This document shows, one piece after another, positions 1,869 to 22,500 of a DNA stretch of 25,742 bases (positions are counted from its first letter, which is position 1; every line of letters starts with the position of its first letter). A model generated the notes under the pieces. It was not told where the DNA came from, ran no database searches, and saw only the letters and a program-made list of their open reading frames with translations. The stretch covers positions 1 to 25,742 of IMG/VR virus record IMGVR_UViG_3300025642_000027, one strand, 5' to 3'. The position numbers and the translations under genes are program-made. Source of the DNA: a virus.

Positions 1869-1982
1869 CAATCAGGGCGTTCCTTAACCGACGGGTTGAG
1901 GGATTATAAAGAAATTCAAGGGCAGTGTGGACTCCACATCGGGATTATTCCCGGTTCACACTGCCCTTTTTCTTTGCCCTGA
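1869..1982 (+). other. Three-level structured RNA element, copy 1 (portal/protease gap)
   Basis: This element starts at the base after the portal stop. A long-range stem closes it: TCAGGGC (1872-1878) with GCCCTGA (1976-1982). Inside are a small hairpin (AACC/GGTT around 1885-1896), the single-stranded word TAAAGAAATTCAA (near 1907-1919), and a strong 12-bp stem AAGGGCAGTGTG/CACACTGCCCTT (1918-1929 with 1957-1968) capped by CGGG/CCCG and followed by TTTCTTT. A second element with the same plan, flanking words and 114-nt span lies at 14702-14815. The protease ribosome site follows eight bases later. It may act as a partial terminator or an RNA processing/stability signal. Confidence 0.6.
1918..1975 (+). 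terminator. Intrinsic-terminator-like hairpin inside the operon
   Basis: A perfect 12-bp stem (1918-1929 with 1957-1968), containing a small CGGG/CCCG hairpin, runs straight into a T-rich tract (1967-1975, nine bases with one C). As transcribed on the plus strand this is a good intrinsic terminator. Essential virion genes follow without an obvious new promoter, so termination is probably partial or overridden. Confidence 0.55.
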
Positions 1983-2002
1983 AGCTAATGGAGGAAAACC
2001 AA

Positions 2003-3058
2003 ATGAGAATCAAAAGGAGCCCATTCAAACCGAGAGCGAAGGCAGGACTTTATAAAATCAAGGACGCAGACCCGACCTATGATTGTGAATGTATCGACTG
2101 CGGGCATGAGATGCAATCCGATGAACATTGCCGAGATATTAAATGCCCTGAATGTGGCGGAGAAATGAGAAGGGCGGAACGTCCAGGGCAGGGTGCAAAG
2201 AGTGCGAAAGCAACTGAAGCAACCGTTTTTATTTATGATGAAATTGGCTGGTTTGGTGTTAATGCCGAGGACTTCATAAAAGACCTGAACGGTATTAAAG
2301 CAAAGACGATCCATTTACGGTTTAATTCCCCCGGCGGGTCCGTTTTCGATGGCACAGCCGTATTTAATGCAATTAAGCAGCACAAAGCGAAGACGGTCTC
2401 CCACATAGACGGGCTCGCCGCCTCTATCTCTTCTGTGATTGCTCTTGCCTCCGATGAAGTACGCATGGCCGAGAATGCTTTTCTAATGATTCACGATCCG
2501 TGGTCGATGGTGATTGGGAATGCAGACATTATGCGTGAAGAGGCTGATTTGCTGGATAAGATCGGCGGAACGATTGCGAAGTCGTATATGGACAAGACTG
2601 GGAAAGACGCCAAAGAAATCAAGAAATTAATGGCAGCCGAAACATGGATGACAGCCGATGAAGCCCTCGAAATGGGATTTATCGACGCGATTGATGAGAA
2701 TGAAGAAGACGAAAAGGCGAAAGCCACATTATTTGATCTGTCTGTTTTCGCTAACGTGCCAGACACACTAATGAAGATGGAAGCAAAGAAAGACCTTAAT
2801 GAGCGTGATTTAGAGAAAGTCCTGCGAGAGGCAGGAGGTTGTTCTCGAAGTCAGGCTAAGGAAATATTGGCTAAAGGGTTTGCCGCTATTCAGGATGTGC
2901 GAGATGCCCAAACTGAAAGCGATGGTCAGGATGTGCGAGATGCCCAAACTGAAGAAACCCCTCTGCGAGATGCCGAGCCAGCCGAAGACCATGCGATTAC
3001 CGAAGGAAGCACAGAATATCTATTAATGCAGGCCGAAATAATGGCCCCAACAGGATAA
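2003..3058 (+). CDS. Head maturation protease, ClpP/SppA-like, with N-terminal zinc ribbon
   Basis: A 351-residue serine protease expected to cleave capsid and scaffold proteins during head maturation. Residues 28-51 form a zinc ribbon (CX2C at 30/33 and 48/51, extra Cys at 28 and 43), followed by MRRAERPG. The ClpP-type core spans about 74-250: FNSPGGSVFDG gives the oxyanion glycines, DGLAASISS the nucleophile (Ser141) and FLMIHDPW the catalytic His164. The C-terminus is charged, with a 12-residue tandem repeat (QDVRDAQTE). I chose ATG 2003 because GGAGG lies eight bases upstream. Upstream in-frame codons back to 1925 would read through the structured element and are unlikely to be coding. 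An AAGGAGG at its stop leads into the capsid gene. Confidence 0.9.
   Translation: MRIKRSPFKPRAKAGLYKIKDADPTYDCECIDCGHEMQSDEHCRDIKCPECGGEMRRAERPGQGAKSAKATEATVFIYDEIGWFGVNAEDFIKDLNGIKAKTIHLRFNSPGGSVFDGTAVFNAIKQHKAKTVSHIDGLAASISSVIALASDEVRMAENAFLMIHDPWSMVIGNADIMREEADLLDKIGGTIAKSYMDKTGKDAKEIKKLMAAETWMTADEALEMGFIDAIDENEEDEKAKATLFDLSVFANVPDTLMKMEAKKDLNERDLEKVLREAGGCSRSQAKEILAKGFAAIQDVRDAQTESDGQDVRDAQTEETPLRDAEPAEDHAITEGSTEYLLMQAEIMAPTG
2891..2953 (+). repeat. 27-bp direct repeat in the protease gene tail
   Basis: An exact 27-base word beginning CAGGATGTGCGAGATG occurs at 2891-2917 and 2927-2953, a 36-base (12-codon) period that keeps frame. A third, shorter echo (CTGCGAGATGCC) is at 2961-2972. It encodes an acidic linker and probably varies in copy number by slippage. 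Confidence 0.85.
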
Positions 3059-4554: not shown

Positions 4555-5046
4555 ATGACTATGAAATTTTCACCAGAAACATTCCCGACCATTCAATGCC
4601 ATGAGCCGGTCTTGAGTAATGCGATCGCTGCAACTTGTCAGCCCATTTACCTTGGGAACGCCGATGGTGTGTGGCTTATGATGCACGAGGATTACGCCGT
4701 TGATGGAACCCAGCTTGTTTTGACATTCAGAGAGGGTGCAACGGAAGCGATTGCCTTGGCTGGAACCTATGCTGTCACGGCTACCTGGGGCGGGTGGAAG
4801 AATATCACCGCACAGACCAGCGATGTGTGGACGGCATTGACCGCCGCTGCTACCTTCACCTTGGATGGAGAGGCGGGTGGTAACAACTGCATGTGGGCGT
4901 TTTATGTTCCCTCCATCATGCTCACAGACGGGTACGATTGGCTGCACCCGACCTTTGCCGATGGTAATGGTGGTAATTATGTCAGTGCTATGTATATCCT
5001 GGACGGTTTCAGATACAAGCAGGCTACACCTCCCACCGCGATGTAA
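4555..5046 (+). CDS. Putative virion protein, possible capsid decoration
   Basis: A 163-residue protein of unrecognised family. It is neutral to acidic, rich in Thr, Ala, Trp and Gly, with no signal peptide or membrane segment. Alternating hydrophobic stretches such as AIALAGTYAVTATWGGW suggest beta structure. Two ATGs are possible (4555 and 4561); AAAAGGAGG at 4538-4546 lies eight bases before the first, which I chose. The very strong ribosome site and its position right after the major capsid gene suggest an abundant head protein, for example a decoration or head-fibre protein. This is inference from position. Confidence 0.6.
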   Translation: MTMKFSPETFPTIQCHEPVLSNAIAATCQPIYLGNADGVWLMMHEDYAVDGTQLVLTFREGATEAIALAGTYAVTATWGGWKNITAQTSDVWTALTAAATFTLDGEAGGNNCMWAFYVPSIMLTDGYDWLHPTFADGNGGNYVSAMYILDGFRYKQATPPTAM

Positions 5047-5058
5047 ACCGATAACCAT

Positions 5059-5080
5059 GGCGGGCTGAAATATGCCCGCC
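5059..5080 (+). other. 7-bp GC hairpin followed by ACTATAAA
   Basis: GGCGGGC (5059-5065) and GCCCGCC (5074-5080) make a perfect GC-rich stem with an 8-base loop just after the 163-residue gene. It is followed by TAACTATAAA, not a T-run. A similar hairpin at 6477-6496 is followed by TGACTATAAA, so the pair may be one type of intercistronic element. Confidence 0.65.
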
Positions 5081-5142
5081 TAACTATAAACCTGGGTGGT
5101 CTGGAAAGATGACCATGCCATTATCCAAAGGAGGATAAAAAT

Positions 5143-5640
5143 ATGGCGAACTATAACCCAAGCACGATTGCAAGAATTGCTGACATTAATTATGGACTGC
5201 GGGTTGATACAGCCGTTCTGGCCGCTACAGGCTGGGGCGGAATAGCGGTTTGGCCGTTATTTACCGTTGTCAATGGGAGAGTTCTGGTTAATCAAATTGT
5301 CGGGGAAATCACAACCGTTCTGCCGACGCTTGCCACATTGGTAAAGTATTATTTCACGCCAACCGGGGGGGCACAGGTTGACCTTAGTGCTATTTCTTTG
5401 ACTGTTTCAGATTTAGCAGTAGGCATACGTATTTTAGCAGCAGGAACCATCGGAGGTGCAACCACATTCAGCGGTATTGGGGCATCAATGGCGCAACCGA
5501 CACCCTACATAGTTGGTCAAGTCGGAGTCGGCGGAGCGCTTGGCATTGAATCCACGACTATAGCGTTGACTTCAGGGGCAGCAAAGTTTTCTGTCTGGTA
5601 TGTACCGCTTGATGACGGTGCCTATATAGAAGCTGCATAA
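5143..5640 (+). CDS. Putative virion protein, Gly/Ala/Thr-rich
   Basis: A 165-residue protein with almost no charged residues in its C-terminal two thirds. It is rich in Gly, Ala, Thr, Val and Ile, as in many beta-sandwich virion proteins. The start reads MANYNPSTIARIADINYG; the middle (KYYFTPTGGAQVDLSAISLTV) and end (AAKFSVWYVPLDDGAYIEA) look like edge strands of a compact beta domain. AAAGGAGG lies a normal distance ahead of ATG. I do not recognise the family. Strong translation and placement between capsid and connector suggest a decoration protein or trimeric head protein. It is not obviously similar to its neighbours at 4555 and 5853. Confidence 0.6.
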   Translation: MANYNPSTIARIADINYGLRVDTAVLAATGWGGIAVWPLFTVVNGRVLVNQIVGEITTVLPTLATLVKYYFTPTGGAQVDLSAISLTVSDLAVGIRILAAGTIGGATTFSGIGASMAQPTPYIVGQVGVGGALGIESTTIALTSGAAKFSVWYVPLDDGAYIEAA

Positions 5641-5652
5641 GGGAGGTAGGCT

Positions 5653-5838
5653 ATGACCGTGCAACTTGTCACAACCATTCAAAGGTGGAATTGGTGGGAT
5701 GGAGATACGAAGCCCACTGATCCACCGGAGGGTTCAACCGGGTACGAAGTCAACACAGGTGTAAGATGGATTTACCATGACGGAAACTGGGTTGAGGATA
5801 TCTCGTTAATCTATGCGCTTACAGAAGCGTTACCATAA
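5653..5838 (+). CDS. Small Trp-rich phage protein
   Basis: A 61-residue protein with six Trp residues: RWNWWDGD near the start, then VRWIYHDGNWVED. It has a good GGGAGG ribosome site and gaps of only 12-14 bases on both sides, so it is part of the same transcriptional unit. The segment GSTGYEVNTGVRWIYHDGNW looks like a short beta-hairpin module of the kind seen in small phage structural or attachment proteins. Function is unknown; a minor head protein is a guess. Confidence 0.6.
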   Translation: MTVQLVTTIQRWNWWDGDTKPTDPPEGSTGYEVNTGVRWIYHDGNWVEDISLIYALTEALP

Positions 5839-5852
5839 CGGAGGATTTTAAA

Positions 5853-6470
5853 ATGCAAGCAGAAGCAAGAGTGGGTGCGATTTCAGCATCCAGTGGGAGC
5901 GTAAATCCACTACGGACGAATGAGGAAGGTGCTCTCGTAACACAGTGCGGGGGCGGAAAGTATTATGAGGCGACAAAGAACGCTCAGGTTTACGTGGTCG
6001 CAAATCAGGCGGCGGTGGCGCTCACAGCATTGTACGCAACTCCATACACGGGCCTTTTGATAGCCAACCCGCCAGCTTCAACAAAAAATCTGGTTATGTT
6101 GCGATTCGGATATACCTTCACCGTTTTGGCACCGACAGCCGCTACATGGATTGGGTTGATGACTGGATCTGCTCCGACGACCGCCCTTGTCAGTACGATT
6201 GACACAAGGAATCGCTTAAAGGGTGGCGCCGCAGGCGTAGGTATCGCCTTAGATGCCGCTGTCTTGACTGGGGGTATCCCGGTACTTGAACAGGTGTTTG
6301 GAATGTATGGCACAGGGGCGACAAACCTATTCACCCAAGGCCCATTTGGTGACATCGATCTTGACGGTTCGTTGATTCTGGCTCCTGGTTATTATGTGGC
6401 TGCATGTAGTTTTGCGGCAAACACGGCCAGCGCGGAATTTTCATTTATGTGGCAGGAAGTGGATGCCTAA
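5853..6470 (+). CDS. Putative virion structural protein
   Basis: A 205-residue protein, Ala/Gly/Thr-rich and poor in charge, with no membrane segment or signal. It opens with MQAEARVGAISASSGSVNPL, then carries strand-like runs (TGLLIANPPASTKNLVMLR) and ends APGYYVAACSFAANTASAEF. This composition is typical of beta-rich virion surface proteins; I do not recognise a named family. CGGAGG precedes ATG. With the genes at 4555, 5143 and 5653 it forms a four-gene block of strongly translated unknowns between capsid and neck, consistent with head decoration. A hairpin follows its stop. Confidence 0.6.
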   Translation: MQAEARVGAISASSGSVNPLRTNEEGALVTQCGGGKYYEATKNAQVYVVANQAAVALTALYATPYTGLLIANPPASTKNLVMLRFGYTFTVLAPTAATWIGLMTGSAPTTALVSTIDTRNRLKGGAAGVGIALDAAVLTGGIPVLEQVFGMYGTGATNLFTQGPFGDIDLDGSLILAPGYYVAACSFAANTASAEFSFMWQEVDA

Positions 6471-8141: not shown

Positions 8142-8462
8142 ATGCCTATAGGGGATCTCAATAAAAGGATTACATTACAGCATACCACTAAGGTCAGTGA
8201 CGGTATGGGAAATTTTACTACTGTCTGGCACGACACGGCCACCGTTTTCGCAGCTATTTGGCCCCTGTCAGCAACCGAGCGCATAATGTCAAAACAGTTA
8301 TCTGGCGAACTTACACACCGTATACGTATCAGATACCGGCGCGGCATAAGAACATCACACAGAATTAAGTTTGGAAACCGTTATTTCAATATTGACGGAC
8401 CGCCGATTAACCCGAATGAGAAAAATGAGTATCTTGACATCATGTGCAAAGAGGCAGTTTGA
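8142..8462 (+). CDS. Head-tail adaptor / head closure protein
   Basis: A 106-residue protein of the phage head-tail joining family (SPP1 gp16-like, Phage_H_T_join). These form a ring between connector and tail and close the DNA channel. The opening MPIGDLNKRITLQ, then GNFTTVWHDTATVFAAIWPLS, LSGELTHRIRIRYR and the near-final FNIDGPPINPNEKNEYLDIMC follow the family pattern strand by strand, and the length is normal. The start has GGTGGA upstream and comes after two closely spaced stops of the preceding ORF. The stop overlaps the next ATG by one base. Confidence 0.9.
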   Translation: MPIGDLNKRITLQHTTKVSDGMGNFTTVWHDTATVFAAIWPLSATERIMSKQLSGELTHRIRIRYRRGIRTSHRIKFGNRYFNIDGPPINPNEKNEYLDIMCKEAV

Positions 8463-8950
8463 TGAAGAATTTGACGGAAGCAATATGGGGGGAATTATCA
8501 GGTAGCGCATTATCGGCCCGCATCCAAAATAGGATGTTTAAGGGCCAAGCACCTGAAGGAACTACTTACCCTTACGCCGTATTTTTCGTGGTAACGGATG
8601 TACCAGAGCATACATTTACGGAAGATTTTGAAAATGTGGTCGTACAGTTTTCTCTCTTTTCCTCGGCGTCGGGAACGGAACAAATTGAAGATATGTATGC
8701 AGATTTACTAACCCTTTATGATGAGAATGATTTTTCCATAGAAGAAGAAGACCTGATATGGATGCGAGAGTCCAATACTGCATTCCTGGTAGAGGATCAC
8801 ACCACACCCACAGGAACACAAAGGATTTGGGCGTATCATGTGTCATTTGACGTAAAAACATTAAACGAGCCCTATGCTGTTGTCTGGATGGATACACCGG
8901 ATGTTATTTTTGAAGATACCACGGGTGTTGAATTTAGGAACCGGTCGTGA
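8462..8950 (+). CDS. Tail terminator/completion-like protein, paralog A
   Basis: A 163-residue protein similar to the DUF3168-type tail completion family, which caps the tail tube and joins it to the head. Visible features are MKNLTEAIWGEL at the start, TYPYAVFFVVTDVPEHTF, the strand VVVQFSLFSSASG, a helix (EQIEDMYADLLTLYDE) and a final TQRIWAYHVSFDV. I chose ATG 8462 because it follows GAGG by a normal distance and matches the next protein's start. It is about 57% identical over 136 ungapped positions to the next gene, by hand count. It carries an extra C-terminal tail of about 27 residues (starting PYAVVWMDTPDV). Confidence 0.75.
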   Translation: MKNLTEAIWGELSGSALSARIQNRMFKGQAPEGTTYPYAVFFVVTDVPEHTFTEDFENVVVQFSLFSSASGTEQIEDMYADLLTLYDENDFSIEEEDLIWMRESNTAFLVEDHTTPTGTQRIWAYHVSFDVKTLNEPYAVVWMDTPDVIFEDTTGVEFRNRS

Positions 8951-9357
8951 AGGATTTAACCACAGCGATATGGGGACAATTATTAGGCAGTGATTTAAGT
9001 GATCGTATATCTTCAAGGCTTTATAAAGGGCAGGTGCCAGACGGTGCAAGTTATCCATATGCGGTTTATTCAATATCTTCAATCACATCGAACCGGAATT
9101 TTACCGAGCATTATAAAGATGTTATTGTGCAATTTAGCCTTTTTAGCTCGGCATCGGGAACCACGGAGATTGAAAATTGTTACACAGACCTGAAAACTTT
9201 ATACGATGAGAAACAGTTTATAGTCACCGGATCAACCCTTGTGTGGATGCGAAGGATAAGTGCTGCATTTATCGTTGAGGACCATGTTACGCCCACAGGA
9301 ACGGTGAGGGTTTGGGCGTATCATGTGGATTTTGAAGTGTTGACCAGCTTGGATTAA
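8947..9357 (+). CDS. Tail terminator/completion-like protein, paralog B
   Basis: A 136-residue paralog of the preceding gene. It begins MKDLTTAIWGQLLG and shares exact blocks VQFSLFSSASGT, TLYDE, VEDH and TPTGT. It starts with GTG at 8947, overlapping the previous stop (GTGA), with TAGGA upstream. It lacks the C-terminal extension of copy A, which matches the ordinary length of the family. One copy is probably the true tail terminator; the other may have a separate neck role or be a dispensable duplicate. The next gene starts four bases later and belongs to the sugar-modification cassette. Confidence 0.75.
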   Translation: MKDLTTAIWGQLLGSDLSDRISSRLYKGQVPDGASYPYAVYSISSITSNRNFTEHYKDVIVQFSLFSSASGTTEIENCYTDLKTLYDEKQFIVTGSTLVWMRRISAAFIVEDHVTPTGTVRVWAYHVDFEVLTSLD

Positions 9358-9360
9358 ACG

Positions 9361-10020
9361 ATGATACCAATGCCCCAAATAGTTTATTTACAGACCATGA
9401 CAGCCTGCAACGGTCATTGTAGGTATTGCCCATTTGACGATATTTACAAGGGCAAGACAGAAAAGAAGATGTCTTTTGCCTGTTACAAAACGATAATCGA
9501 ATGGCTGAAGGATAACAATTATAAAAGCCGGATTGGATACCTCCTTCATTATGAGCCTACAATGGATTCACGTTTAGGCAAGTGGATTGAATATGCCAGG
9601 GAGATGTTGCCAGGCATATCCCTTGAGATAGCCACTAATGGAATTATTGACGCCCCGATTTTGAAAAAATTCGATAGGGTTGATTGTGCCCCGGCGGGGT
9701 CTTTAAAGGTCGCAACATCCAGGGCCGGGAATTGTAAGGCTACGCCGGAGACAATACAGAGAAAGCGGCTAATAGAACCCCCCTGTGCTGTGCCATCATG
9801 GACCATGCCAATTGCTGCCAATGGGAATGTCCTATTGTGCTGCCAGGATTGGCGGCATGAGGTTGTGGTTGGTACGTGGAAGGATTTATCAGCGGCAAGG
9901 AGTAAGCAATTATATTACGCTGAAAAGGCTCAGAAATTAGAGCTTGAAATCTGCCAGGACTGTATGGCAGGGAAAACGGTTGAAGAAGTTGGGGAACGGT
10001 TAGGAAAACGGACACCATGA
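9361..10020 (+). CDS. Compact radical SAM protein with SPASM/twitch-type C-terminus
   Basis: A 219-residue radical SAM protein. CX3CX2C at Cys16/20/23 (TACNGHCRYC) binds the catalytic [4Fe-4S] cluster and S-adenosylmethionine. HYEPTMDS sits where the usual GGEP-like SAM-contact motif is expected, and LEIATNG follows. The C-terminus has a twitch-type auxiliary-cluster motif: Cys142, Gly155 then Cys160 (CX12GX4C, followed by CCQDW), and CX2C at 198/201. SRAGN near 120 is familiar from radical SAM proteins in glycosylation loci. Most SPASM proteins have roughly 300 or more residues; about 60-70 residues of barrel appear missing between TNG and SRAGN. It has no good ribosome site and starts four bases after the tail-terminator stop. 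The substrate is unknown; the neighbours suggest a sugar or glycoprotein. Confidence 0.85.
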   Translation: MIPMPQIVYLQTMTACNGHCRYCPFDDIYKGKTEKKMSFACYKTIIEWLKDNNYKSRIGYLLHYEPTMDSRLGKWIEYAREMLPGISLEIATNGIIDAPILKKFDRVDCAPAGSLKVATSRAGNCKATPETIQRKRLIEPPCAVPSWTMPIAANGNVLLCCQDWRHEVVVGTWKDLSAARSKQLYYAEKAQKLELEICQDCMAGKTVEEVGERLGKRTP

Positions 10021-10649
10021 AAATTACAGTCTTTACTATTGCTTACAACGGATACGGAGTATTTATTCCACGCTGGTTGAAGAGCATACATTCGCAAACC
10101 TACCCATCCTATGAGATCATCATTGTTTTAGGACGCGACCACGGGTTAAAAGATATCCCTGGGGGTGCGAAAATCTTATACCACGATCAATCTGCAACAA
10201 TGGGATTCCTTCGTAATTTGGCAATAGATGCGGCCACTGGTGATTATATGTTCTATTTTTCAGCCGATGACATATTACTCGGAAATGCTTTACGGGAGAT
10301 TAGTAACGTAAACGCTGACATTATTGCGCTCCGTTATTATAAAGAACATGAGGTGCATGTTACACCAGAAATAATGGCTGAAAAATTGGGGGAATGGGAA
10401 ACACTTTATACCGATTGTTGCGGATATATGGCTTTTAAAAAAGGCTTGCGATATGAAGATACTGATTGGCCTAATTATCCATTATTGTTTCAGGCGTATA
10501 TGGAAGGATACACATTCAGGAGAACAAAAGAGCCTGGAGCGGTTTATATAAAGCGGCATGGTGGCCATGGTCGGGTATTTGCAAACAATGTTCAAGGGAC
10601 CGGTGAAATAATGAAATACCTTGTGCAATATGGGCTTATAACTGAATGA
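10017..10649 (+). CDS. Family 2 glycosyltransferase (GT-A fold)
   Basis: A 210-residue enzyme transferring a sugar from a nucleotide donor. ITVFTIAYNGYGVFIPRWLK at the start is the typical GT2 beginning, followed by IHSQTYPSYEIIIVLG, the GFLRNLAIDAATGDYMFYF segment and SADD at about residues 83-86 as the metal-binding DXD-type motif. The C-terminal half (YEDTDWPNYPLLFQAY) carries the acidic acceptor-side residues and is short. No membrane segment, so it acts in the cytoplasm of the infected cell. Start and stop both overlap neighbours by ATGA, implying coupled translation. The acceptor cannot be told from sequence. Confidence 0.88.
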   Translation: MKITVFTIAYNGYGVFIPRWLKSIHSQTYPSYEIIIVLGRDHGLKDIPGGAKILYHDQSATMGFLRNLAIDAATGDYMFYFSADDILLGNALREISNVNADIIALRYYKEHEVHVTPEIMAEKLGEWETLYTDCCGYMAFKKGLRYEDTDWPNYPLLFQAYMEGYTFRRTKEPGAVYIKRHGGHGRVFANNVQGTGEIMKYLVQYGLITE

Positions 10650-12757
10650 AAATTTTGATTACAGCATATTATGTGAACGGTGAAGGCGGATCGGGACGGT
10701 TTATGCGATGCCTTTCGTACACTTTGGCTGATATGGGCCACGAAGTGATGGTCTCTTCGGAACCAGAGGAAGTCCTTGACCGGGAATACGACTTGATTAT
10801 TTGCAGTCATTTCCTTCACAGGATCAAAGGAAACCCAGCACCTAAAATATGTATATCGCACGGGATAGTTGACAATGAATGGATTTACCCCGGTGCCCAG
10901 AAATATGTGTCGATAAGTGAAGAAGTAAAAGCTCACAACCTGAAATATGGGATACTCAGCGAGGTAATCGGGCAACCTATTGTGATAGGAGAGCAGAAGA
11001 GGCCTGGGGAGTTTTTGGAAAAGATCCTGGTCATCAGAAGACATGAAAACGACCCGTGTCCGTTTAAGTTCCTGGGTGAAATAGAGACAGTGGGGCGTTA
11101 TTATGAGCTTCGATATAGCGACCCAGAAATACCGATTGAAGATCAAATAGAGTGGGCGGATCTTTGTATTACACTTGGCAGGGGGGCCCTGGAATCAATG
11201 GCGCAAGGCAAGCCGGTCTTGGTTGCTGATAATCGGGATTATATGGGCGCAATAGGAGATGGATACATCACGCAAGAGAACATAAACGAGATTGCAAAGC
11301 ACAACTTCTCAGGCAGGCGATATAATATCCCATTAACCCGAGATTGGATAGAAGGCGAACTTAACAAATATAACCAGGATGATTCGGATTTTCTTTATGG
11401 GTACGTTACTAAAAACCACGAAGCCAAACAAATAGCAAGGGGGTATTTGAAAATGGTAGGACCAGGACAGGAAAAGAAGGAAGCTCAAAAGGGGTTGCTC
11501 TCTATTGTCATACCGATCTGGAACCAGCATACCATGACTAATGACTGTATCCAGGCAATTATGGAGAATACGGAAGCTGGAACCTATGAAATTATTTGCA
11601 TTGACAACGGATCAGACCCACCATACAAACCGCCGTTTTCAGGATTCAACGAGACTCGGATAATTCGCAATAAAGATAATAAAGGCTTCCCGATTGCGGC
11701 AAACCAGGGGATCAGGGATGCAAAAGGGGACGTGATTTGTCTGTTTAACAACGATATCTTTGTTACACCAGGATGGGCAGAACGGCTTTTAGCCTGGTTG
11801 GACGAATTTGACATTGTAGCACCTATGACAAACTACAGTGCCGGGGTGCAGCAGACAGTTATTTCATCTTATCAAACAACGGAAGAATTGGCCGAGGCCG
11901 CAGAACAATTCAGTGAAGAAAATGAGGGCCGGGCTCATAACGTTAATTTTGCAACGATTTCCATGTTCATTAAGAGGGAGATCTTTGACGACATCGGGTA
12001 CCTTGATGAAACATTGTGGCCGAGCAGTGGTGAGGACATTGATTTTGGTTTCAGGGCCAGGCAAGCAGGGTACAAGATGGGGATTGCCAACGATGTATAT
12101 GTCCATCACGAGGGGTCTCAGACATTCAAGGCATTGGAAGAATCTGGGTTGATAACTTACGGAGAGGTTATTGCTCAAAATGATAAATACCTTGCGGAAA
12201 AATGGGGCGAAGATTTTTGGCATAATCAAATGTATTACGGGAAAACTACAGTCCCGGGTGAGGATGCAGTTCGGTTGAATCTTGGATGTGGTGGATATCC
12301 AAAGAAAGGCTTTGTAAATGTTGATCAGCTTGAAAGCGTAAAACCGGATCTATTATCAGATGTAACGGATTTGCCATACCGACCTAACACGGCAGATGAA
12401 ATTTATTGCGGGCATCTGCTTGAGCATTTGTCATGGGATGAAGGGCAGGGCGCATTAAAGCATTGGTTGGATATTTTAAAGCCGGGTGGGGAGATTAGGA
12501 TAGTCGTTCCAGATTTTGATATATTGGCAAAACGATATTTTGACAATCCGACGCCGGGAGACTTGAAGCATCTTAACGATTTTTACATTTATTCTTACGT
12601 GCAGGAATCTCCACATCGATATTTTTACAGCGCAGGTCTTTTGAAAATGGCAATGGGGACGGCGGGGTTCAAGAAGGTTGAACAGTTGGCAGTTGATGAT
12701 CCGTACTTCGTGGAACCCGTCCCGTGGCAGTGTGGCTTTGTGGGAGTGAAGGGATGA
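10646..12757 (+). CDS. Three-domain glycan enzyme: GT-B-like, GT2 and methyltransferase
   Basis: A 703-residue fusion. Residues 1 to about 270 resemble a GT-B glycosyltransferase: MKILITAYYVNGEGGSGRF and HEVMV at the N-lobe, KICISHGIVD, YVSISEEVK, then LCITLGRGALESMAQGKPVL in the donor-binding lobe. Residues about 284-505 are a GT2 domain: LSIVIPIWNQ, CIDNGS, NKGFPIAANQG, FNNDIF as the DXD-type motif, and SSGEDIDFGFRARQAGY. Residues about 540-703 are a class I SAM methyltransferase: LNLGCGGYPKKGFVNVD, then DEIYCGHLLEHL and LKPGGEIRIVVPD. It overlaps both neighbours by ATGA. One chain could add two sugars and methylate one of them. Domain calls are firm for GT2 and methyltransferase, moderate for GT-B. 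Confidence 0.88.
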   Translation: MKILITAYYVNGEGGSGRFMRCLSYTLADMGHEVMVSSEPEEVLDREYDLIICSHFLHRIKGNPAPKICISHGIVDNEWIYPGAQKYVSISEEVKAHNLKYGILSEVIGQPIVIGEQKRPGEFLEKILVIRRHENDPCPFKFLGEIETVGRYYELRYSDPEIPIEDQIEWADLCITLGRGALESMAQGKPVLVADNRDYMGAIGDGYITQENINEIAKHNFSGRRYNIPLTRDWIEGELNKYNQDDSDFLYGYVTKNHEAKQIARGYLKMVGPGQEKKEAQKGLLSIVIPIWNQHTMTNDCIQAIMENTEAGTYEIICIDNGSDPPYKPPFSGFNETRIIRNKDNKGFPIAANQGIRDAKGDVICLFNNDIFVTPGWAERLLAWLDEFDIVAPMTNYSAGVQQTVISSYQTTEELAEAAEQFSEENEGRAHNVNFATISMFIKREIFDDIGYLDETLWPSSGEDIDFGFRARQAGYKMGIANDVYVHHEGSQTFKALEESGLITYGEVIAQNDKYLAEKWGEDFWHNQMYYGKTTVPGEDAVRLNLGCGGYPKKGFVNVDQLESVKPDLLSDVTDLPYRPNTADEIYCGHLLEHLSWDEGQGALKHWLDILKPGGEIRIVVPDFDILAKRYFDNPTPGDLKHLNDFYIYSYVQESPHRYFYSAGLLKMAMGTAGFKKVEQLAVDDPYFVEPVPWQCGFVGVKG

Positions 12758-13914
12758 AATGCCGGGTCTGTGAAAGTAATTGCAAGATGTTTTTAGACTT
12801 GGGGCGGCAACCGATAGCCAATAACTTCCTGACTCCTGAGAATTTTAAGGATGAGTGGTTCTACAATCTCCAAGTGTATTTTTGCCCTGACTGTTTCACG
12901 GCCCAGATCGGAGAATGCCCGGACAGCTCTGAGGTGTTTAATAAGGATTATTCTTTCTTCACCGGATCTTCACAACGCATGGTTAAACATTTTGCAAATT
13001 TGGCCGACAAGATAAAGAAATCATTTATGCCGAAAAACGGCTGCATCATGGAAATTGGAAGCAACGATGGGACATTTCTTGAGCATTTTAAAGACAATGT
13101 ACATCTCGGTTTCGATCCATCCGGGAGTGTTAATGATGTGGCAAGAGCTAAGGGTGTGAGAGTTTATCCTTATCCATTTGAGAACTTTGGAAACGTAGCG
13201 AGTGCATGGCCAAAAACTGATGTCTTCGTGTCGGCCAATTCATTCGCTCATATTTCAAACAGGCGCGGGGTTTTGGATGGTATCAAGCGAATGCTGGCTC
13301 CTGATGGGGTCTGGATAAATGAAGAGCCTTATCTTGGAAATATTATCAGTCGGTTGGAATATGACCAGTTTTATAACGAGCACACGTTTTACAGTTCAAT
13401 AGTTTCGATGCAAAAGACCTTGTATTTATACGACCTTGAGATAATGGATTTTGAGTTCTTATGGACTCACGGCGGGTCAATTCGGTATTTTGTGGGACAT
13501 AGAAAGCCGGGGTTACGCGAAAAGGTTGAGGATGCAATTAAGGCTGAGGGGCTTGACAATTTCGATGTTTTCAACAGTTTTGGAAAATTAGTGAAGTTCA
13601 GTGCAAAGAGATTAAAGCAACGATTGATAGACATAAAAAAGCCGGTCGTCGGGTACGGGGCGGCAGCGAAAAGCACCATCGTACTCAATTACTGCGATAT
13701 TGGTCCGGATATTGTGTCGAAGATTTACGATACAACGCCGGAGAAGCAGGGGAAGTTCTCACCTGGGATGCATGTACCGATCGTGTCCTATGAACAATTC
13801 AAAGAGGATAACCCATTGGATATAGTTTTATTTGCTTGGAATCATGCAAAAGAGATCTTTGCAAAAGAGGCTGGGATAGAACGTAACTGGATTATACCGA
13901 CAGGGGGGATATAA
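12754..13914 (+). CDS. Sugar C-methyltransferase
   Basis: A 386-residue member of the NDP-sugar C-methyltransferase family (TylC3/NovU type), which adds a methyl carbon to a 4-keto sugar to make a branched sugar. It has all three family parts: an N-terminal zinc site (Cys3, Cys6, Cys44, Cys47), a central SAM-binding domain (MEIGSNDGTFLEHF near 100, then ANSFAHISN and LAPDGVWINEEPY), and the C-terminal domain with KPVVGYGAAAKSTIVLNY. YNEHTFYSS lies at the expected active-site region. Start 12754 overlaps the previous stop (ATGA) and follows GGAGTGAAGGG. No 4,6-dehydratase is in the window, so the 4-keto sugar would come from the host or from outside the window. Confidence 0.88.
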   Translation: MKCRVCESNCKMFLDLGRQPIANNFLTPENFKDEWFYNLQVYFCPDCFTAQIGECPDSSEVFNKDYSFFTGSSQRMVKHFANLADKIKKSFMPKNGCIMEIGSNDGTFLEHFKDNVHLGFDPSGSVNDVARAKGVRVYPYPFENFGNVASAWPKTDVFVSANSFAHISNRRGVLDGIKRMLAPDGVWINEEPYLGNIISRLEYDQFYNEHTFYSSIVSMQKTLYLYDLEIMDFEFLWTHGGSIRYFVGHRKPGLREKVEDAIKAEGLDNFDVFNSFGKLVKFSAKRLKQRLIDIKKPVVGYGAAAKSTIVLNYCDIGPDIVSKIYDTTPEKQGKFSPGMHVPIVSYEQFKEDNPLDIVLFAWNHAKEIFAKEAGIERNWIIPTGGI

Positions 13915-14019
13915 ATGAAACTTGAATATAGGACTCTTGTAATCTGGCGGAAGGAATTACAGGATAAACCATTAACAATCAATAAAATAAGGGGGTTTAT
14001 TGAAAATGCGTGTATCTAA
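13915..14019 (+). CDS. 34-residue ORF between cassette genes
   Basis: A 34-codon ORF starting directly after the C-methyltransferase stop (TAAATG), with GGGGGG six bases upstream as a usable ribosome site. The product begins MKLEYRTLVIWRKELQDKPL and ends FIENACI; it is basic and overlaps the next gene by 14 bases in another frame. It may be a true small protein or only a leader that couples translation to the next gene. A radical SAM gene lies in the same cassette, so a modified peptide is conceivable, but no leader/core features are visible. Confidence 0.4.
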   Translation: MKLEYRTLVIWRKELQDKPLTINKIRGFIENACI

Positions 14020-14701
14020 TACAAGGCTCGCAATAGGCGTTCCACTTTCTTTTCCGTGGGTGCCATCAAGTTTTTTTCATTCGTTTATTCAGATGGAGAA
14101 ACCAGACTATATGTATTTATACGAAGATTCGACCGGGCCGATTCATGAGCTTAGAAATAACATGGTTGAAAAAGCTCAAATGATGGGAGCCACAAAATTG
14201 CTCATGTGTGATATCGATCAGGTGTATCACCCAAAAACGGTTACTAAACTTTTATCCCATAATCTTCCGGTAGTGGGGGCACTTGTCCACCGTCGTTATC
14301 CTCCGTTTGATAGTTTGATGATTAAGTTAGTTGACGTAGACGAACACACACAAGCCTATGCCAGTATCGACGATTGGGAGGAAGATGAACTCGTAGAAGT
14401 GGACGCTACAGGATGTGGATGTATTATGTACGATATGGAAGTTTTTCGGAAATTACCGCGTCCTTGGTACAAAGCATCATACGGTGCGGACGGAATGCCG
14501 ATAGGTGAGGATTTTGGTTTCTGCTCTGATCTAAAGGCAGCGGGTTACAAAATCTTTGTTGACACCTCAGTGCCTGCGGGACATTTGGCAACTATGATTA
14601 TAAACACGGCAACGAACAGGTTATACAGGGCAATGAAAAGCGAAAAGCAAAAAGAAGCAGCAAAGAGCGCAATGGGCATTGAAGAAAAGAAGTTTGCGTA
14701 A
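14006..14701 (+). CDS. Glycosyltransferase-like protein (GT-A type)
   Basis: A 231-residue protein with the outline of a short GT-A glycosyltransferase. It has LAIGVPLSFPWVPSSFFHSF at the start, ELRNNMVEKAQMMGATKLL, then CDIDQVYHP with DXD at residues 69-71, VDATGCGCIMYDMEVF and GEDFGFCSDLKAAGYKIFVD, ending in a HL pair near 193 often seen in such enzymes. I prefer ATG 14006 over the TTG at 14000, because GGGGG at 13991-13995 is ten bases from the ATG but only four from the TTG. The gene closes the sugar cassette, and its stop is followed at once by the second structured RNA element. Confidence 0.75.
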   Translation: MRVSNTRLAIGVPLSFPWVPSSFFHSFIQMEKPDYMYLYEDSTGPIHELRNNMVEKAQMMGATKLLMCDIDQVYHPKTVTKLLSHNLPVVGALVHRRYPPFDSLMIKLVDVDEHTQAYASIDDWEEDELVEVDATGCGCIMYDMEVFRKLPRPWYKASYGADGMPIGEDFGFCSDLKAAGYKIFVDTSVPAGHLATMIINTATNRLYRAMKSEKQKEAAKSAMGIEEKKFA

Positions 14702-14853: not shown

Positions 14854-15300
14854 ATGGCAGATCGTGCGACCACGCTTAGTGGTAGATTTCAAAAGGTAAC
14901 ACTCGGACCCACAACGAAGATCCTTGGTGCCGGAACCTATACGATTTCAGGTATGACAAGGAGAACGGTGGATGCCGGCGAGTTTGGCGTAGACGTAGAC
15001 GTCTTTGAGTATGATAGTTCAGATGGTGGAACTATTTCGCTTGGAAGCTGTCTTTATGATCCTACGGATGTGCCGCAGAATACGCTAAGGTCAGCAGTTG
15101 AGGATAGCGTGAAACTCGGTCCCAGTCTTCTTACGTCAGGTATTCGATTCTGGATCAATTCGTCTTCTTATTGGACTATCGGAACCTCTGGCCACATCTT
15201 AATGACCAAGGCTGGAAATGTTGAAGCAGATCGGAATGGATTGGGGAAGACTTCATTCGAAGGTCAAGTCTCTGGTGCTTTCATGTATCTCAGTGCTTAA
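14854..15300 (+). CDS. Major tail tube protein (probable)
   Basis: A 148-residue protein in the position of the tail tube gene: after neck genes and directly before the tail assembly chaperone pair. AGGAGG at 14840-14845 with good spacing implies high expression, as expected for the most abundant tail protein. The sequence is Gly/Ser/Thr-rich and beta-like: TLSGRFQKVTLGPTTKILG, TYTISGMTRRTVDAGEFG, and a C-terminal GKTSFEGQVSGAFMYLSA. The GEFGVDVDVFEY part is compatible with the strand-loop-strand of tube subunits. The family was not matched by a signature, so the call rests on context and composition. Confidence 0.7.
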   Translation: MADRATTLSGRFQKVTLGPTTKILGAGTYTISGMTRRTVDAGEFGVDVDVFEYDSSDGGTISLGSCLYDPTDVPQNTLRSAVEDSVKLGPSLLTSGIRFWINSSSYWTIGTSGHILMTKAGNVEADRNGLGKTSFEGQVSGAFMYLSA

Positions 15301-16167: not shown

Positions 16168-16578
16168 ATGCGCGTTGAATATTGGAAACCAGAGGAGGCA
16201 TATAAGGACTTCTCTTATATATCAAAGAAGAGAGTTTTAAAAGCAGCTAATGTCATCAAGGATGCCGTAGTGAGGCGATTGAGAAGTCAAATAGGCACAG
16301 GTAAAACAACCGGCATTAGTAGGCCAATGTATAAGAGCGGGCCATATGCCGGAGTGCCGTGGACTAAAAGAGATTTCGGGGAACTATTGAAAAGTGTAAG
16401 AGTGGTCCAAAAGAAAGAAAACTATGGTGTTGAAAAATTTGAAAAACAAAACGTGCGTGTCTATGTGGGCAATTACTATGCTTTTTATGCTGACATCTTT
16501 GAATTTTCAAAACCATTTATGCGCCCCGCCGTTGCAGATACATTAGATGAAGTTAAAGACATATTGGGTACGAAATAA
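16168..16578 (+). CDS. HK97 gp10-like neck/tail protein
   Basis: A 136-residue protein resembling the HK97 gp10 family, small head-tail joining or tail completion proteins. Features are an early helix rich in Lys/Arg (SKKRVLKAANVIKDAVVRRL), a Gly/Pro loop (SGPYAGVPW), a strand segment NVRVYVGNYYAFYADIFEF, and the near-terminal SKPFMRPAVADTLDEVKDIL, where PFMRPA is the most characteristic motif. GAAGGGTGA lies ahead of ATG. In most phages this gene lies between head closure and tail terminator; here it sits between chaperones and tape measure. Its stop overlaps the tape measure ATG by one base. Confidence 0.7.
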   Translation: MRVEYWKPEEAYKDFSYISKKRVLKAANVIKDAVVRRLRSQIGTGKTTGISRPMYKSGPYAGVPWTKRDFGELLKSVRVVQKKENYGVEKFEKQNVRVYVGNYYAFYADIFEFSKPFMRPAVADTLDEVKDILGTK

Positions 16579-19500
16579 TGGCAACTCATAGAATAGGAAA
16601 AATCTTTGTTGAAATTGATTTAGATCCTAATCGGTTTTATAAGTCTCAAAAGAATATTCTGAATGAGATCAAAAACGGCGCGAAGGTGTTTGAGAAAAAT
16701 TATAGAAACTTGGGGATCAAGAGTGGTGCTGCTTATGATCTTATGCGGGCTCAAGCTGAAGCGTCTTTTAAGGCAATCAAAAAAAGCGGCCGTGCCACCA
16801 TTGATGATATGGTAAGGGCTGAGAGGGCCAAGGCCACCAAAATACAACAGATTAATGAACAGCAATATGGAAAGCAAATTTCCATGATGCACAAGTTTAA
16901 AAAGAATTACCTGGCTATATCAGCAAGCATAGCGGCGTCTCTTTATGTGCTTCAGCGTGCTACCCGGCCATTTGTGGTGGCATTTGAAAAAGGTTTTAAC
17001 GCGGTTGAAGATTACGCTCAGTCTGTTGCAGGTTTAGCGGCCATGGTGGTTACTTTCACTGAGCGTTCAAAGGGTGTCTCTCTCTCTGATCAATGGGAAT
17101 TGGGTCTAAAATATTCAACGGCTATGGTTCCTATCCTTGAAAACCTGGCAGCCAAAACGCTTCTTTCAGGAAAAGAAACCACCGCTCTTGCGAACGCTTT
17201 TGCCAGGGCCGGGGTGTTCCTTAACGCTTCAAACGAAAAACAGGTCGAGAGCTTTACAAGGATCTCAAATGCACTACCTTTAATGACCGCAGGCCAGGAA
17301 ATCATGAAGCAGATTAACTCTGAAATCAGAGCTGTCATGACCGGTGCAAATGCTGCAACGTCTATGATGCTTCAAACTCTCAGAGCAATAGATCCGGAGC
17401 TTGACAAAAATTTAAAGACATGGCGGGCAGAAGGAACCGTACTTGAACATATAGGGGATTTACTCGTTGGTTTTGGTCCAGCTACAGAGCTACTTGAAAA
17501 GCAATGGCAAGCTGTGAAATCAACCATTGAAACAACTGCTACTCAGATTTTAAGAGGGTTAATGAAACCCGCATATGAATCTATTATCGAAAGTACAATA
17601 GAATTAAACAATTGGCTTCTCAAAAACAAGGAAACAATAACTAACTGGGGAATATCATTTAGGATCACCCTGATTAGCGTGGAAGCTGAAGTGCTCCGCC
17701 TTGCTATGCTCCTTGATAAGTTTGGCGGAACTTTCACATCAGCGCAGATGCTTCTTTACGGACCTGGCTCTGCCTTGGGATTTAAGAGTAGTGTAAAAAG
17801 ATTTGAAGCGGCTGCTAAGGCTAATATGGAATACGCGGCCAGATATGCGGAAAACGACAAACGGCTTGAAGAATTGGCACGAAATCAGATCGCGTTAGAG
17901 CAGGAATTGGCTGACGGAAGTGTTTCAGCGGCTCAACAAAAGGCAGACGCATCGACCGAATTCACGGCAAAGATTGTCAAAGATTTAGATGCTCAAAAGA
18001 GAGCAATGAAGGAAGCCGCAGAACAAGCTAAAGCATTAGTCACTGCAATAAAGGAGCTGGCTTGGGGGCTGGCAAATCTACCCGATGAAGATCCTTCAGG
18101 TTTATTCGCATTTATCAATCAAGAGGATCTTTACTTTGACATAGAACTTGGTCCAGGTTTCGCAGATGCTAAAAAGGTATTGGCAGCGGTGGCGAAAGAA
18201 GTCAAGAAAACTACAGACTATTTCAAGGAGTTAGATGATTTAATGAAGCAGGCCGGGGATTCTTTTTCTGGCAATACCTTTGCTAATACTATGGCGGATG
18301 ACATTGGTAAAGTTGTGATCTCCATGCAGGAACTTATGGAGATGTATGAAGAGCAGGCCGAGATCCAGAAGGAACTTGCAGAGGCTCGGAAGGAAGCCTA
18401 CAAGATAAACGATATTGATAAAAGGACCAAGGCCCTTGAAAAGATCGGTGATATTGAAGAAACAATGATGAAGAGCCAATTGTCTGGGTATCGTCAGCTC
18501 TTTGGTGCAACAGCGCAAATGTTTGAGGAAAATTCATCAGCGAGGCAGGCTATGCACACCGCCGAAATGGTGTTTGCTGCTGCTGAGATTGCCATAGGAT
18601 TAAAGAAAGCTCTTGTCAATGCGGTTGCAGCTACGACAGCACAAGGATCAATTCCCATAGCTGGTTTCGCTATGGTAGCGGCCATGGCGGTAATGATGGG
18701 GGCTATATTAGCACAAATAGGCGGATCATTTTCTGGAGGAAGTGGCTCCGCACCCTCTGTGGCACAACTTCCACAAAGCACAGTCCTTGGAGCAGATCCG
18801 GGAACAGCCAGCGAGTCCATATCAAACGCCTTCGAAATGCTTGAAGATGTCAATGCAGACCAGTACGCAGCATTGTTGGATATTTACCATGCAATTCAGG
18901 ACCTGAATCAAAATATCACAGGTCTTGTAACAGCAATAGTAAAGGGGAGTGGCAGTGTCGGTGGTGGGTATGGGGCGATTAGCAGTCCTGAAATGGAGTG
19001 GAATGCTCAGATTGAAAATAAATGGGAGGAGTTTTCAAACGCTTTTGCAAAATTTTTGTCTCTTGATCCAATAGTTAGCATGTTAATGAAATTTACAGGG
19101 GGGCTCCTTGCAAGCCTGCTTGGGAAAATCTTTGGTGGTGGGGGCTGGCAAGTTTTAGAGGCAGCAGGTATTGAATTACGAAATATAGATTTTGGAAAAA
19201 TCTTGCAAGGCATGGAGATTACAGCAGTAGCTTTTGCAAGACTTTTCAAGCACACGGAAGGAGGATTGGTCCACAGTGATAAAGATGAGCGCTGGACTGA
19301 ATATGCAGAACTTGACCAGGACGTAATTCGATTACTGACTGATATTTTTAAGAATATTGGTGAAGCTATGGTGGCTCTTTCCAAAGGATTAGGAACTGAT
19401 GTTCAAGCAGTATATGATTATATCATCCCAAAAATGCAAATCAATCTAAACGGGCTGAATGCAGAGCAAATCGATAAAGCCATGCAAGCATTCTTTGCAA

Positions 19501-22500
19501 ATCTAACAGACACCATGGCTGAAGATTTGTTCGGGCCGATAATTAAACAATATCAACAGGTAGACGAAGGTCTTTACGAAACAGCTGTCCGTCTTGTAAT
19601 GCAAAAAGAGATATTCTTATCAGTCCTTGATATGACGGGCAAGGCTTTTGAAGGAACAGCCGAAGAAGCCATAGCCATGAGCCAAGCTGTTATTGAGGCC
19701 GCTGGGGGTTTTGAAAAGTTTGCTGAATCAATAGAATCTTATTACGATGCGTTTTTTACTGAAGCTGAACAGCTTGCATTCTTGGGCAGTAGTCTATCAG
19801 AATCATTCATGGAACTTGATTTAGTTATGCCGGGCACAAAACAAGGTTTCCGTGATCTAATTGAAGGGATAGACCTTACGACTGAATCCGGGCAGGACTT
19901 ATATGCAGCCTTACTTTCCATCGCCGGGGCAAGCGGTGAATATTATGATGCCCTTGAAGACGCTGCAAAACAACTTGCAGATGCTGAGAAATCTTTACAT
20001 GAAACGCAAATGGAATCAATCGTGAGAGGGGTTGTTGATGACTTCAATGATATTTATGAAGCCCTGGGAATGTTGTATGGATTAGGATCCACGACAGCTT
20101 CGGGGATGCAGGTTGAAATTGCAAATAAAATAGAAGCAAATCAACTACAACAAGCAGCTTTATTAGCATCAGAGGTTGCGAAAGCCTCATCTTTTGAAGC
20201 ATTGTTAACAGTTTTAGAAAATGAAAATCTTCTCATCCAAAGTCGTATAGTAGGTGCGAAAGCATATTTTGAAGGATATCTGTCAGACATGATAATTACT
20301 GGGGACGTAGAGGGTCAAGCAGACATTACACAAGTATTGGCAGATCTTGAACAAGGAACCTTGTCATCAGCCCTTACGTGGTTAAATGCTGAAATTGCAC
20401 GTCTCCAAGCAGGGGGCGATTCGGCAGAAGCGATTGCGGCTTTGGCATCTGCATTGTTAGACCTCGAAGCAGCAGCTATACGATTAGCAGAATTTGAGAA
20501 AAGGCAATTGGTAGCCATAAAGGTTGATATGGGCCTTCAAGATGAAGTCGTTTTTGAGCAATTTAGATTTGATGAGATTGCAGCTCGATATGAAGGTTCT
20601 TTTGAAGACACAATTGATTGGTTTGCAAATGCAACTCTTGATGACATAAAAGCCATAGCGGATACATTAGGGATTAATTGGCTTGAAATCGCAACGGATG
20701 TCGGTTTCTTAGTTGGATATTTTGATGATCTTCAAGCTGCCATAACAAAAATAACAGAGAATCAATGGGAGTTGTTGGGTACTACTGAAGAAGAACGTAT
20801 TAAAGAAATAGAGAACAGATATGCAAGAATAACTGGACCAGAGCCACCTGATTCAAGAATGCCTGTCCTTATCCCCACATTAGAAGGCATAATATCATTT
20901 ATTGATCATCTTAGTACAATGAGACCAGAAAAAGTTATTGCATTAGCAGAGCATTATGAAGTTACGATTGATCAATTATTTGAAGATTTATTTTTCCTGA
21001 AAGATGCTTTTGAGATTGCAGAGGAATCGGTTGAGGATTTTGCGGAAAAGATAAAGGATATTTTTGCTCAAATAAGGGAAAATATAGAGATATCTCAATG
21101 GACGCAAGCAAGACCAAACGCTACTACTGCCGATTATTGGTTCTCGCAGATTGGAGATATGCAAGCACGGATTCTACCTGGAGCCGAAGACCCATTGGTA
21201 AAAGGTGATCTTGTTACAATGTCAGAGCTCGTAACAAAATGGTATGATGCTGCTATTCAAGTTGCGCAAACCTGGGAACAGGTTGCAGATAGCATTGAAG
21301 GTCTAATCAGCCAGGTTGATAGCCTCGTTAATAGCATCAAATATTCCACTCTGAATGTCGGACTACCGGCTCAAAAATTCACGGAAGCTGAGCAAGATTA
21401 TGCTACTCTAAAAGCAGCAGCAGAAACAGGTGGCCAGGCTGAGATACAAGAGTATTTAAGTTTTGTTCAGACATACCTCCAGCAGGCTCAGGATGAGTTT
21501 AAATCAAGCGAAGCGTACCAGCAAATCTATACGGATGTTATGGCAGATCTTGAAACAGTCAAGGGTGACCTCGAAGCTGGGGGTTACGATCAGAAAATCT
21601 ATGATGAGCTTACAACCATAGATGCCACATTACAAGCCAGACTGACTGAGATTAATGAAACCTTTCTTGGCTTTGAAGACTGGATTAATGCTGCACTGGA
21701 AGACTTTGAAGGGTTTGGAACATGGATTGTCCAGTTTGAAGGGATAGATCAAACTAATTTTGACGATGTTATGGGTTTCTTGGCAGATGTTGTTGATGGA
21801 ACCTCTTGGGAATCAGCCATCACATTATATTTCCTTGGAGAAATTGATTGGGATTCTTACGATGTAGAAGATGTACAAAGACAGCTTAATGATATAATTG
21901 AAGGTGCCGGTTGGAACTCGACAGCAATGGTAACAATTGTATCTAATATCAACTGGGCTGCATGGACTGCTGCTGAAATAGAAGCCTGGCTTACGGCTTT
22001 ACAGGAAAATATCGACGAAGAAATGTGGACATCTGCTGCATTCATTCATATGATTGCTGATATTAATTGGGATCAGATTGATCCAACAGCAGTAAGTATC
22101 CTTCTTCAAAATATGGTTGATGCTGTGGGATGGGATGCCGATGCTACTGTATTACTCATAGCTCGTATCTCATGGGATCAGATCGATCCTGCTTTAGTTT
22201 TGCAGTATCTACAACAAATGATAACGGACCTTGGAACTTGGGATGCAATAGCTATAACTACTTTAATAGCCAATGTTAATTGGGGATCATGGAGCGCCGC
22301 AGAGATTGAGGCACTGCTACTATTATTACAGGATACTGTTAATGGTGAGGATTGGAATGCCACATCCATAGTCACTTTATTTGCAAGTATTAATTGGGAT
22401 ATAATTGATCCCATTGCAATACAAGCCTTATTACAACAAATGATAACAGATCTTGGAACTTGGGATGCACCTGCTATAGTAGCATTAGCAGCAAGTGTTA

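Follow-up and report, generated by a model that had tools for sequence, protein, structure and literature searches.

The IMG/VR virus record analysed here spans the entire window (the whole 25,742-base stretch of DNA) and contains a siphovirus-type head-to-tail operon, in which portal, ClpP-like protease, capsid, head genes, adaptor and head closure are followed by the tail genes. The tail part comprises, in order, two tail terminators, a cassette of five enzymes, the tail tube and the tape measure (Table 1), and identical cassettes are present in separately assembled contigs. The gene positions, families and order set out in an earlier note on this sequence are borne out by gene calls and Pfam, which place the cassette downstream of the tail terminators and upstream of the tail tube, and the three ATGA overlaps said to chain the first four cassette genes are indeed there. 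Dozens of distinct loci show the same gene order, which is therefore not a product of chance. The C-methyltransferase was assigned the ATG at its ATGA overlap rather than an upstream GTG at 12724, and the GT-A-like protein a conserved ATG rather than the TTG at 14000. A 34-codon ORF counted as a cassette member in the same note does begin at TAAATG, but it is absent at the same junction in three close relatives (L021-L023), where the gap between the C-methyltransferase and glycosyltransferase genes is at most a few bases. It was therefore rejected as a part of the system, and on this comparison is probably not a gene. The tandem tail-terminator paralogues (8444-9357) are 57% identical, and most relatives have a single copy. 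Elsewhere in the operon, the tape measure (16578-24932, 2784 aa) predicts an unusually long tail and contains ~40-aa repeats with tryptophan at around 22000-23500, and the ClpP-like head protease (1925-3058) has a zinc-ribbon-like N-terminus, from weak NCBIfam matches, and short peptide repeats at its C-terminus.

Table 1. Features from the first tail terminator to the tail tube, with the related loci that have long tubes.
Feature	Position or loci	Strand	Evidence
Tail terminator paralogue 1, Tail_completion_gp17 family	8444..8950	+	Pfam PF11367 1.4e-7
Tail terminator paralogue 2, bordering the island upstream	8947..9357	+	phrog_176 tail terminator 9e-7
Short radical SAM enzyme, BtrN-like, twitch-type auxiliary cluster, 219 aa	9361..10020	+	Pfam, profile, Foldseek
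Family 2 glycosyltransferase (GT2)	10017..10649	+	PF00535 3e-8; ATGA overlap with the radical SAM gene
GT-B-like/GT2/class I methyltransferase fusion	10646..12757	+	PF00535 3e-19, PF13489 2e-8
Sugar C-methyltransferase, TcaB9 family	12754..13914	+	PF08484/PF08421; PDB TcaB9 6e-76
34-codon ORF, probably not a gene	13915..14019	+	Absent from L021-L023
GT-A-like protein (phrog_1574/Anp1-like), last gene before the tube	14006..14701	+	phrog_1574 8e-12
Tail tube protein, 148 aa, proposed acceptor	14854..15300	+	Model fold, gene order
Long tubes with extra N- or C-terminal domains, without island	L219, L227, L251, L213, L220, L221, L222		

The first cassette enzyme matches the Pfam families Radical_SAM (5e-8) and SPASM (1e-4). 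A profile built from eight relatives has BtrN as its sole PDB match (4e-14), and Foldseek with the predicted model also returns BtrN (1e-7) and nothing else below 0.001; the model is of low confidence overall (pLDDT 63) and its fold match was used only to back the sequence result. Both cluster sites are invariant across eight members of the family, namely the CX3CX2C radical SAM motif (C16/C20/C23) and a four-cysteine twitch site (C142-x12-G155-x4-C160, then C198-x2-C201). The twitch motif is described as CX9-15GX4C with a further cysteine pair but lacking the remainder of the SPASM motif (PMC6231123), and the cysteines of the phage enzyme match the motif given for BtrN (PMC6231123, PMC9012708). 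BtrN (PDB: 4M7T), a radical SAM 2-deoxy-scyllo-inosamine dehydrogenase, has the same CX3CX2C at 16/20/23 and the same four-cysteine site, but in the phage enzyme the segment joining the two domains is shorter by ~28 residues, identity is 19-20%, and the gene is phage-borne and located beside glycosyltransferases. On these matches the enzyme is related to BtrN, a sugar dehydrogenase, and is a shorter form of it.

Relatives of this enzyme were found on 16 IMG/VR contigs, corresponding to 10 lineages after removal of duplicates. In all 10 the gene lies directly after the tail terminator or one gene on, and in nine a GT-B gene is located within a gene or two downstream; in the tenth (L017) the contig stops inside the radical SAM gene. 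The tail tube is found downstream in all five lineages whose contigs extend so far. Among 50,697 GenBank phage records there are no cultured relatives of the radical SAM enzyme or the GT-A-like protein, the only matches (26-28%) all being to uncultured records, and no close relatives of the tube or the GT-B domain. The single match in GTDB, a distantly related enzyme of 285 aa from a Clostridia MAG (L020), was placed outside the family.

The fusion protein consists of a GT-B-like domain (aa 1-280), a GT2 domain (aa 284-530) and a class I methyltransferase domain (aa ~536-703). The last two are matched by Pfam (GT2, 3e-19; Methyltransf_23, 2e-8) and the first falls below threshold (0.15-0.17), with counterparts encoded as separate standalone genes in L008, L011 and L016. 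Profile searches with GT-B and GT-A found no PDB relative, and both assignments are putative, coming from weak matches. The C-methyltransferase has a zinc domain, a SAM domain and a C-terminal domain (Methyltransf_13, 1e-17; Methyltransf_14, 5e-35; Methyltransf_12 was also matched), and all three align end to end with the sugar 3-C-methyltransferase TcaB9 (6e-76), including the conserved Glu-His pair and zinc Cys. TcaB9-type enzymes require a keto-sugar nucleotide, and no genes for keto-sugar or nucleotide-sugar synthesis were found within the 25,742-base window. The maximum hydropathy over any 19 residues is ≤1.13, and none of the enzymes has a segment resembling a membrane span.

The tail tube protein has no Pfam match. 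Its AlphaFold model (pLDDT 81) was matched by Foldseek to the monocin tube, the gene transfer agent tube and lambda V; a tube match was also obtained against a viral library, and the gene precedes the tape measure. Across 53 tubes a hydroxyl-rich loop (aa 102-106, NSSSY in this phage) is conserved, with Ser or Thr in 96% at position 104 and in 92% at position 105. This S/T-S/T-Y loop is a candidate glycosylation site only, and its conservation may be structural. No N-glycosylation sequon is claimed here, since many tubes have NxS/T at this loop but some lack it.

Islands of this kind recur in uncultivated phages, the present cassette being one variant. Using the tube alignment as bait we recovered 76 loci, 44 of them distinct with both terminator and tube visible, and in 44/44 the terminator-to-tube interval is 1.2-5.5 kb. 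Pfam was run on 129 of the proteins encoded in these intervals, of which 41 match GT2, 38 Methyltransf_11, 20 Anp1 (best 1.6e-7), seven radical SAM and seven sugar C-methyltransferase. With the GT-A gene as bait, 63 distinct loci were obtained, and the downstream gene could be judged in 60; it is the tube in 52, and in a further four the tube lies one gene further on (together 56/60). Minimal islands consist of terminator, GT-A and tube (L052, L072, L146), and the same tail terminator HMM family forms the upstream border in related loci too. The tie to virion genes proposed in the earlier note is thus upheld, and specifically to the tail tube: homologous cassettes, rather than lying away from virion genes, stay in the terminator-tube slot across many divergent phages. 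Other, longer radical SAM families also occupy this slot (L058, L077, L111, L113, L115, L126, L122, L123, L108), a MoaA-like radical SAM among them. One island encodes a MobA-like nucleotidyltransferase (L047:5324-6037), possibly producing its own sugar nucleotide, with a response-regulator-like gene adjoining. In L171, L181 and L170 the portal and capsid genes are immediately preceded by a GT-B/GT-A pair belonging to the island families.

The radical SAM enzyme is 62-67% identical to those of L008 and L012, but the tubes of the same phages are only 30-36% identical, which indicates that modules are exchanged between phages and settle at one genomic position. As judged from these identities, from the other radical SAM families in the slot and from the separate occurrence of modules, the islands are assembled from parts that repeatedly land beside the tube gene. 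The radical SAM enzyme and the C-methyltransferase are independent modules, found together only in the present lineage (of 10 and 7 lineages, respectively). Their combination, which had been singled out as unusual, does not hold up as a functional pair, with co-occurrence in 1/16 lineages having either. A ketone made by the radical SAM enzyme and fed to the C-methyltransferase is chemically attractive, and was rejected as a general logic on the same count.

The tube alignment was seeded from carriers of the radical SAM gene, and we therefore added a bait unconnected to both tube and cassette, the head-tail adaptor. Within 80 of its 242 IMG/VR relatives, an island is present in 26/26 distinct loci with a short tube (~145 aa) and in 0/7 whose tube is long (212-242 aa) and carries an extra domain. 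Fisher's exact test gives p=2e-7 for island versus tube type, a value which is not corrected for phylogeny and overstates the case, because the short tubes form one family; the long tubes are of at least two kinds. In the seven long-tube loci 11-92 bases separate the tube from the end of the terminator, which in some was assigned from its position alone, and the extra tube sequence is either N-terminal (with a weak E1_FCCH-type match) or C-terminal. The adaptor's sole match in a named organism is to a Desulfofustis phage (31%), and in Desulfofustis phage MD02, a relative of the long kind, the terminator and major tail genes overlap; plasmid matches to the capsid are distant. The short-tube rule is not absolute, since L118 carries an island together with a long tube of another kind.

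Taken together, we consider it roughly two-in-three probable that the five enzyme genes form a phage-encoded island dedicated to building a glycan on the tail. The enzymes would act as soluble proteins in the cytoplasm of the infected cell, consistent with the lack of membrane-like stretches, and would modify a virion protein soon after its synthesis, the tube encoded by the following gene being the likeliest acceptor. The GT-A-like protein, being both near-constant and adjacent to the tube gene, is the most likely to attach the first sugar to protein, after which the GT2 and GT-B/GT2 enzymes would lengthen the chain using host nucleotide sugars, with methyl groups added by the methyltransferase domain of the fusion and by the C-methyltransferase. 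The BtrN-like enzyme is predicted to oxidise a hydroxyl group of a sugar. This sugar is probably the unit on which the downstream GT-B domain works, a domain that follows the enzyme in every lineage where the next genes are visible. Many modified tube subunits together would give the tail a sugar sheath. From these genes we infer the glycan and its sugar chemistry, including any methyl branching, as well as the protein that receives it, the sequence of enzymatic steps and an advantage to the phage, which might be shielding, adsorption or stability.

The acceptor could differ, given the GT-B/GT-A pairs beside portal and capsid genes elsewhere (L171, L181), and the island might modify another virion protein, such as the head proteins (4555-6470), capsid, tape measure or fibre, its slot being merely convenient and late-expressed. 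The precedent of Corndog-type phages, whose glycosyltransferase genes sit between those for portal and protease although the proteins modified are the capsid and the tube (PMC4351075, PMC11600133), lends this some weight. We nonetheless regard it as unlikely, since the GT-A gene keeps to the tube in 56 of 60 loci and the island tracks tube type (26/26 against 0/7), whereas the head genes are variable or unrelated among island carriers. Alternatively, the radical SAM enzyme could act on the tube polypeptide, by oxidation or cross-linking, alongside a separate glycosylation. Peptides are the substrates of many twitch/SPASM enzymes (PMC6231123, PMC9012708), and the longer radical SAM families have also been recruited to this slot (L058, L077, L111, L113, L115, L126), but the only strong structural relative is an aminocyclitol dehydrogenase, the radical SAM core begins at residue 5 with no N-terminal peptide-binding domain, and the neighbouring GT-B gene in 9/10 lineages points to a sugar. 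Action on the polypeptide therefore appears improbable.

It is more doubtful still that the enzymes remodel host surface polysaccharide for serotype conversion or superinfection exclusion. Bacterial polysaccharide clusters also contain GT2, C-methyltransferase and radical SAM genes, and NCBIfam gives GT2 matches of exopolysaccharide type. However, the cassette has neither the membrane-embedded glycosyltransferase and flippase of gtrABC-type serotype-conversion cassettes nor a polymerase, its enzymes contain no hydrophobic segments, and dozens of phages keep the slot in one place, flanked by a tail gene on either side. There is similarly very little to recommend the slot as a mere insertion hot spot for cargo unconnected to the tube. 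Homing endonuclease-like genes (NUMOD3, HNH) do occur within the islands of L029, L069, L231 and L253, but the contents are overwhelmingly glycosyltransferases and methyltransferases, the near-constant GT-A gene adjoins the tube, and the long-tube relatives have no insert.

Glycosylation of virion proteins is known from mycobacteriophages, whose own glycosyltransferases modify capsid and tail tube (PMC12363180, PMC12619734, citing Freeman et al. 2023); the systems described are those of Corndog and Firecracker (cluster O), Che8 and Myrna (PMC12363180, PMC12619734, PMC4351075). Cluster O phages encode an O-methyltransferase and glycosyltransferases inside the virion operon (PMC4351075), a tight run resembling that of the present phage, and the tail tube is among the modified proteins; there the acceptor is shown, whereas here we infer it from the genes. 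In Corndog and Firecracker these genes lie between portal and protease instead of in the terminator-tube slot. Firecracker gp35 is matched by the HMM of the cassette GT2 only (2.3e-7), the GT-A, GT-B and methyltransferase HMMs having no match in Firecracker, and the stretch compared has no annotated radical SAM enzyme or C-methyltransferase, unlike this phage. The two sets of enzymes are distant relatives at best. No publication describing the terminator-tube layout was found within the open-licence literature. What is new is the terminator-tube slot, the BtrN-like radical SAM enzyme and the association with short tubes.

Decoration of the outer tube surface is also achieved by the Ig-like domain of lambda V and the major tail protein extensions of 936 phages (PMC6669499), in which the extra domain is part of the tube gene and does not involve separate sugar enzymes; the long-tube relatives seem to use a solution of this type. 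One tentative reading is therefore of substitution, in which a bare ~145-aa tube has a swappable enzyme island beside its gene and lineages with extra tube domains have no island. Glycan islands and extra tube domains might then be interchangeable as tail coats, with the sheath sugar of this phage conceivably oxidised by a phage-borne BtrN-type enzyme. Tail-tube glycosylation has been documented in a few mycobacteriophages, and the present layout predicts it for a broad group of uncultivated phages, in which the proposed acceptor gene adjoins the predicted glycosylation island. The swappable modules (glycosyltransferases, methyltransferases, C-methyltransferases and more than one kind of radical SAM enzyme) amount to a repertoire of chemistries for glycans on proteins, and through the short-tube rule the purpose of tail surface decoration can be addressed concretely. 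In an unrelated phage genome (MW202711), a GT-A-related glycosyltransferase gene lies between the genes for capsid and tail tubular protein A (L204:6893-7522).
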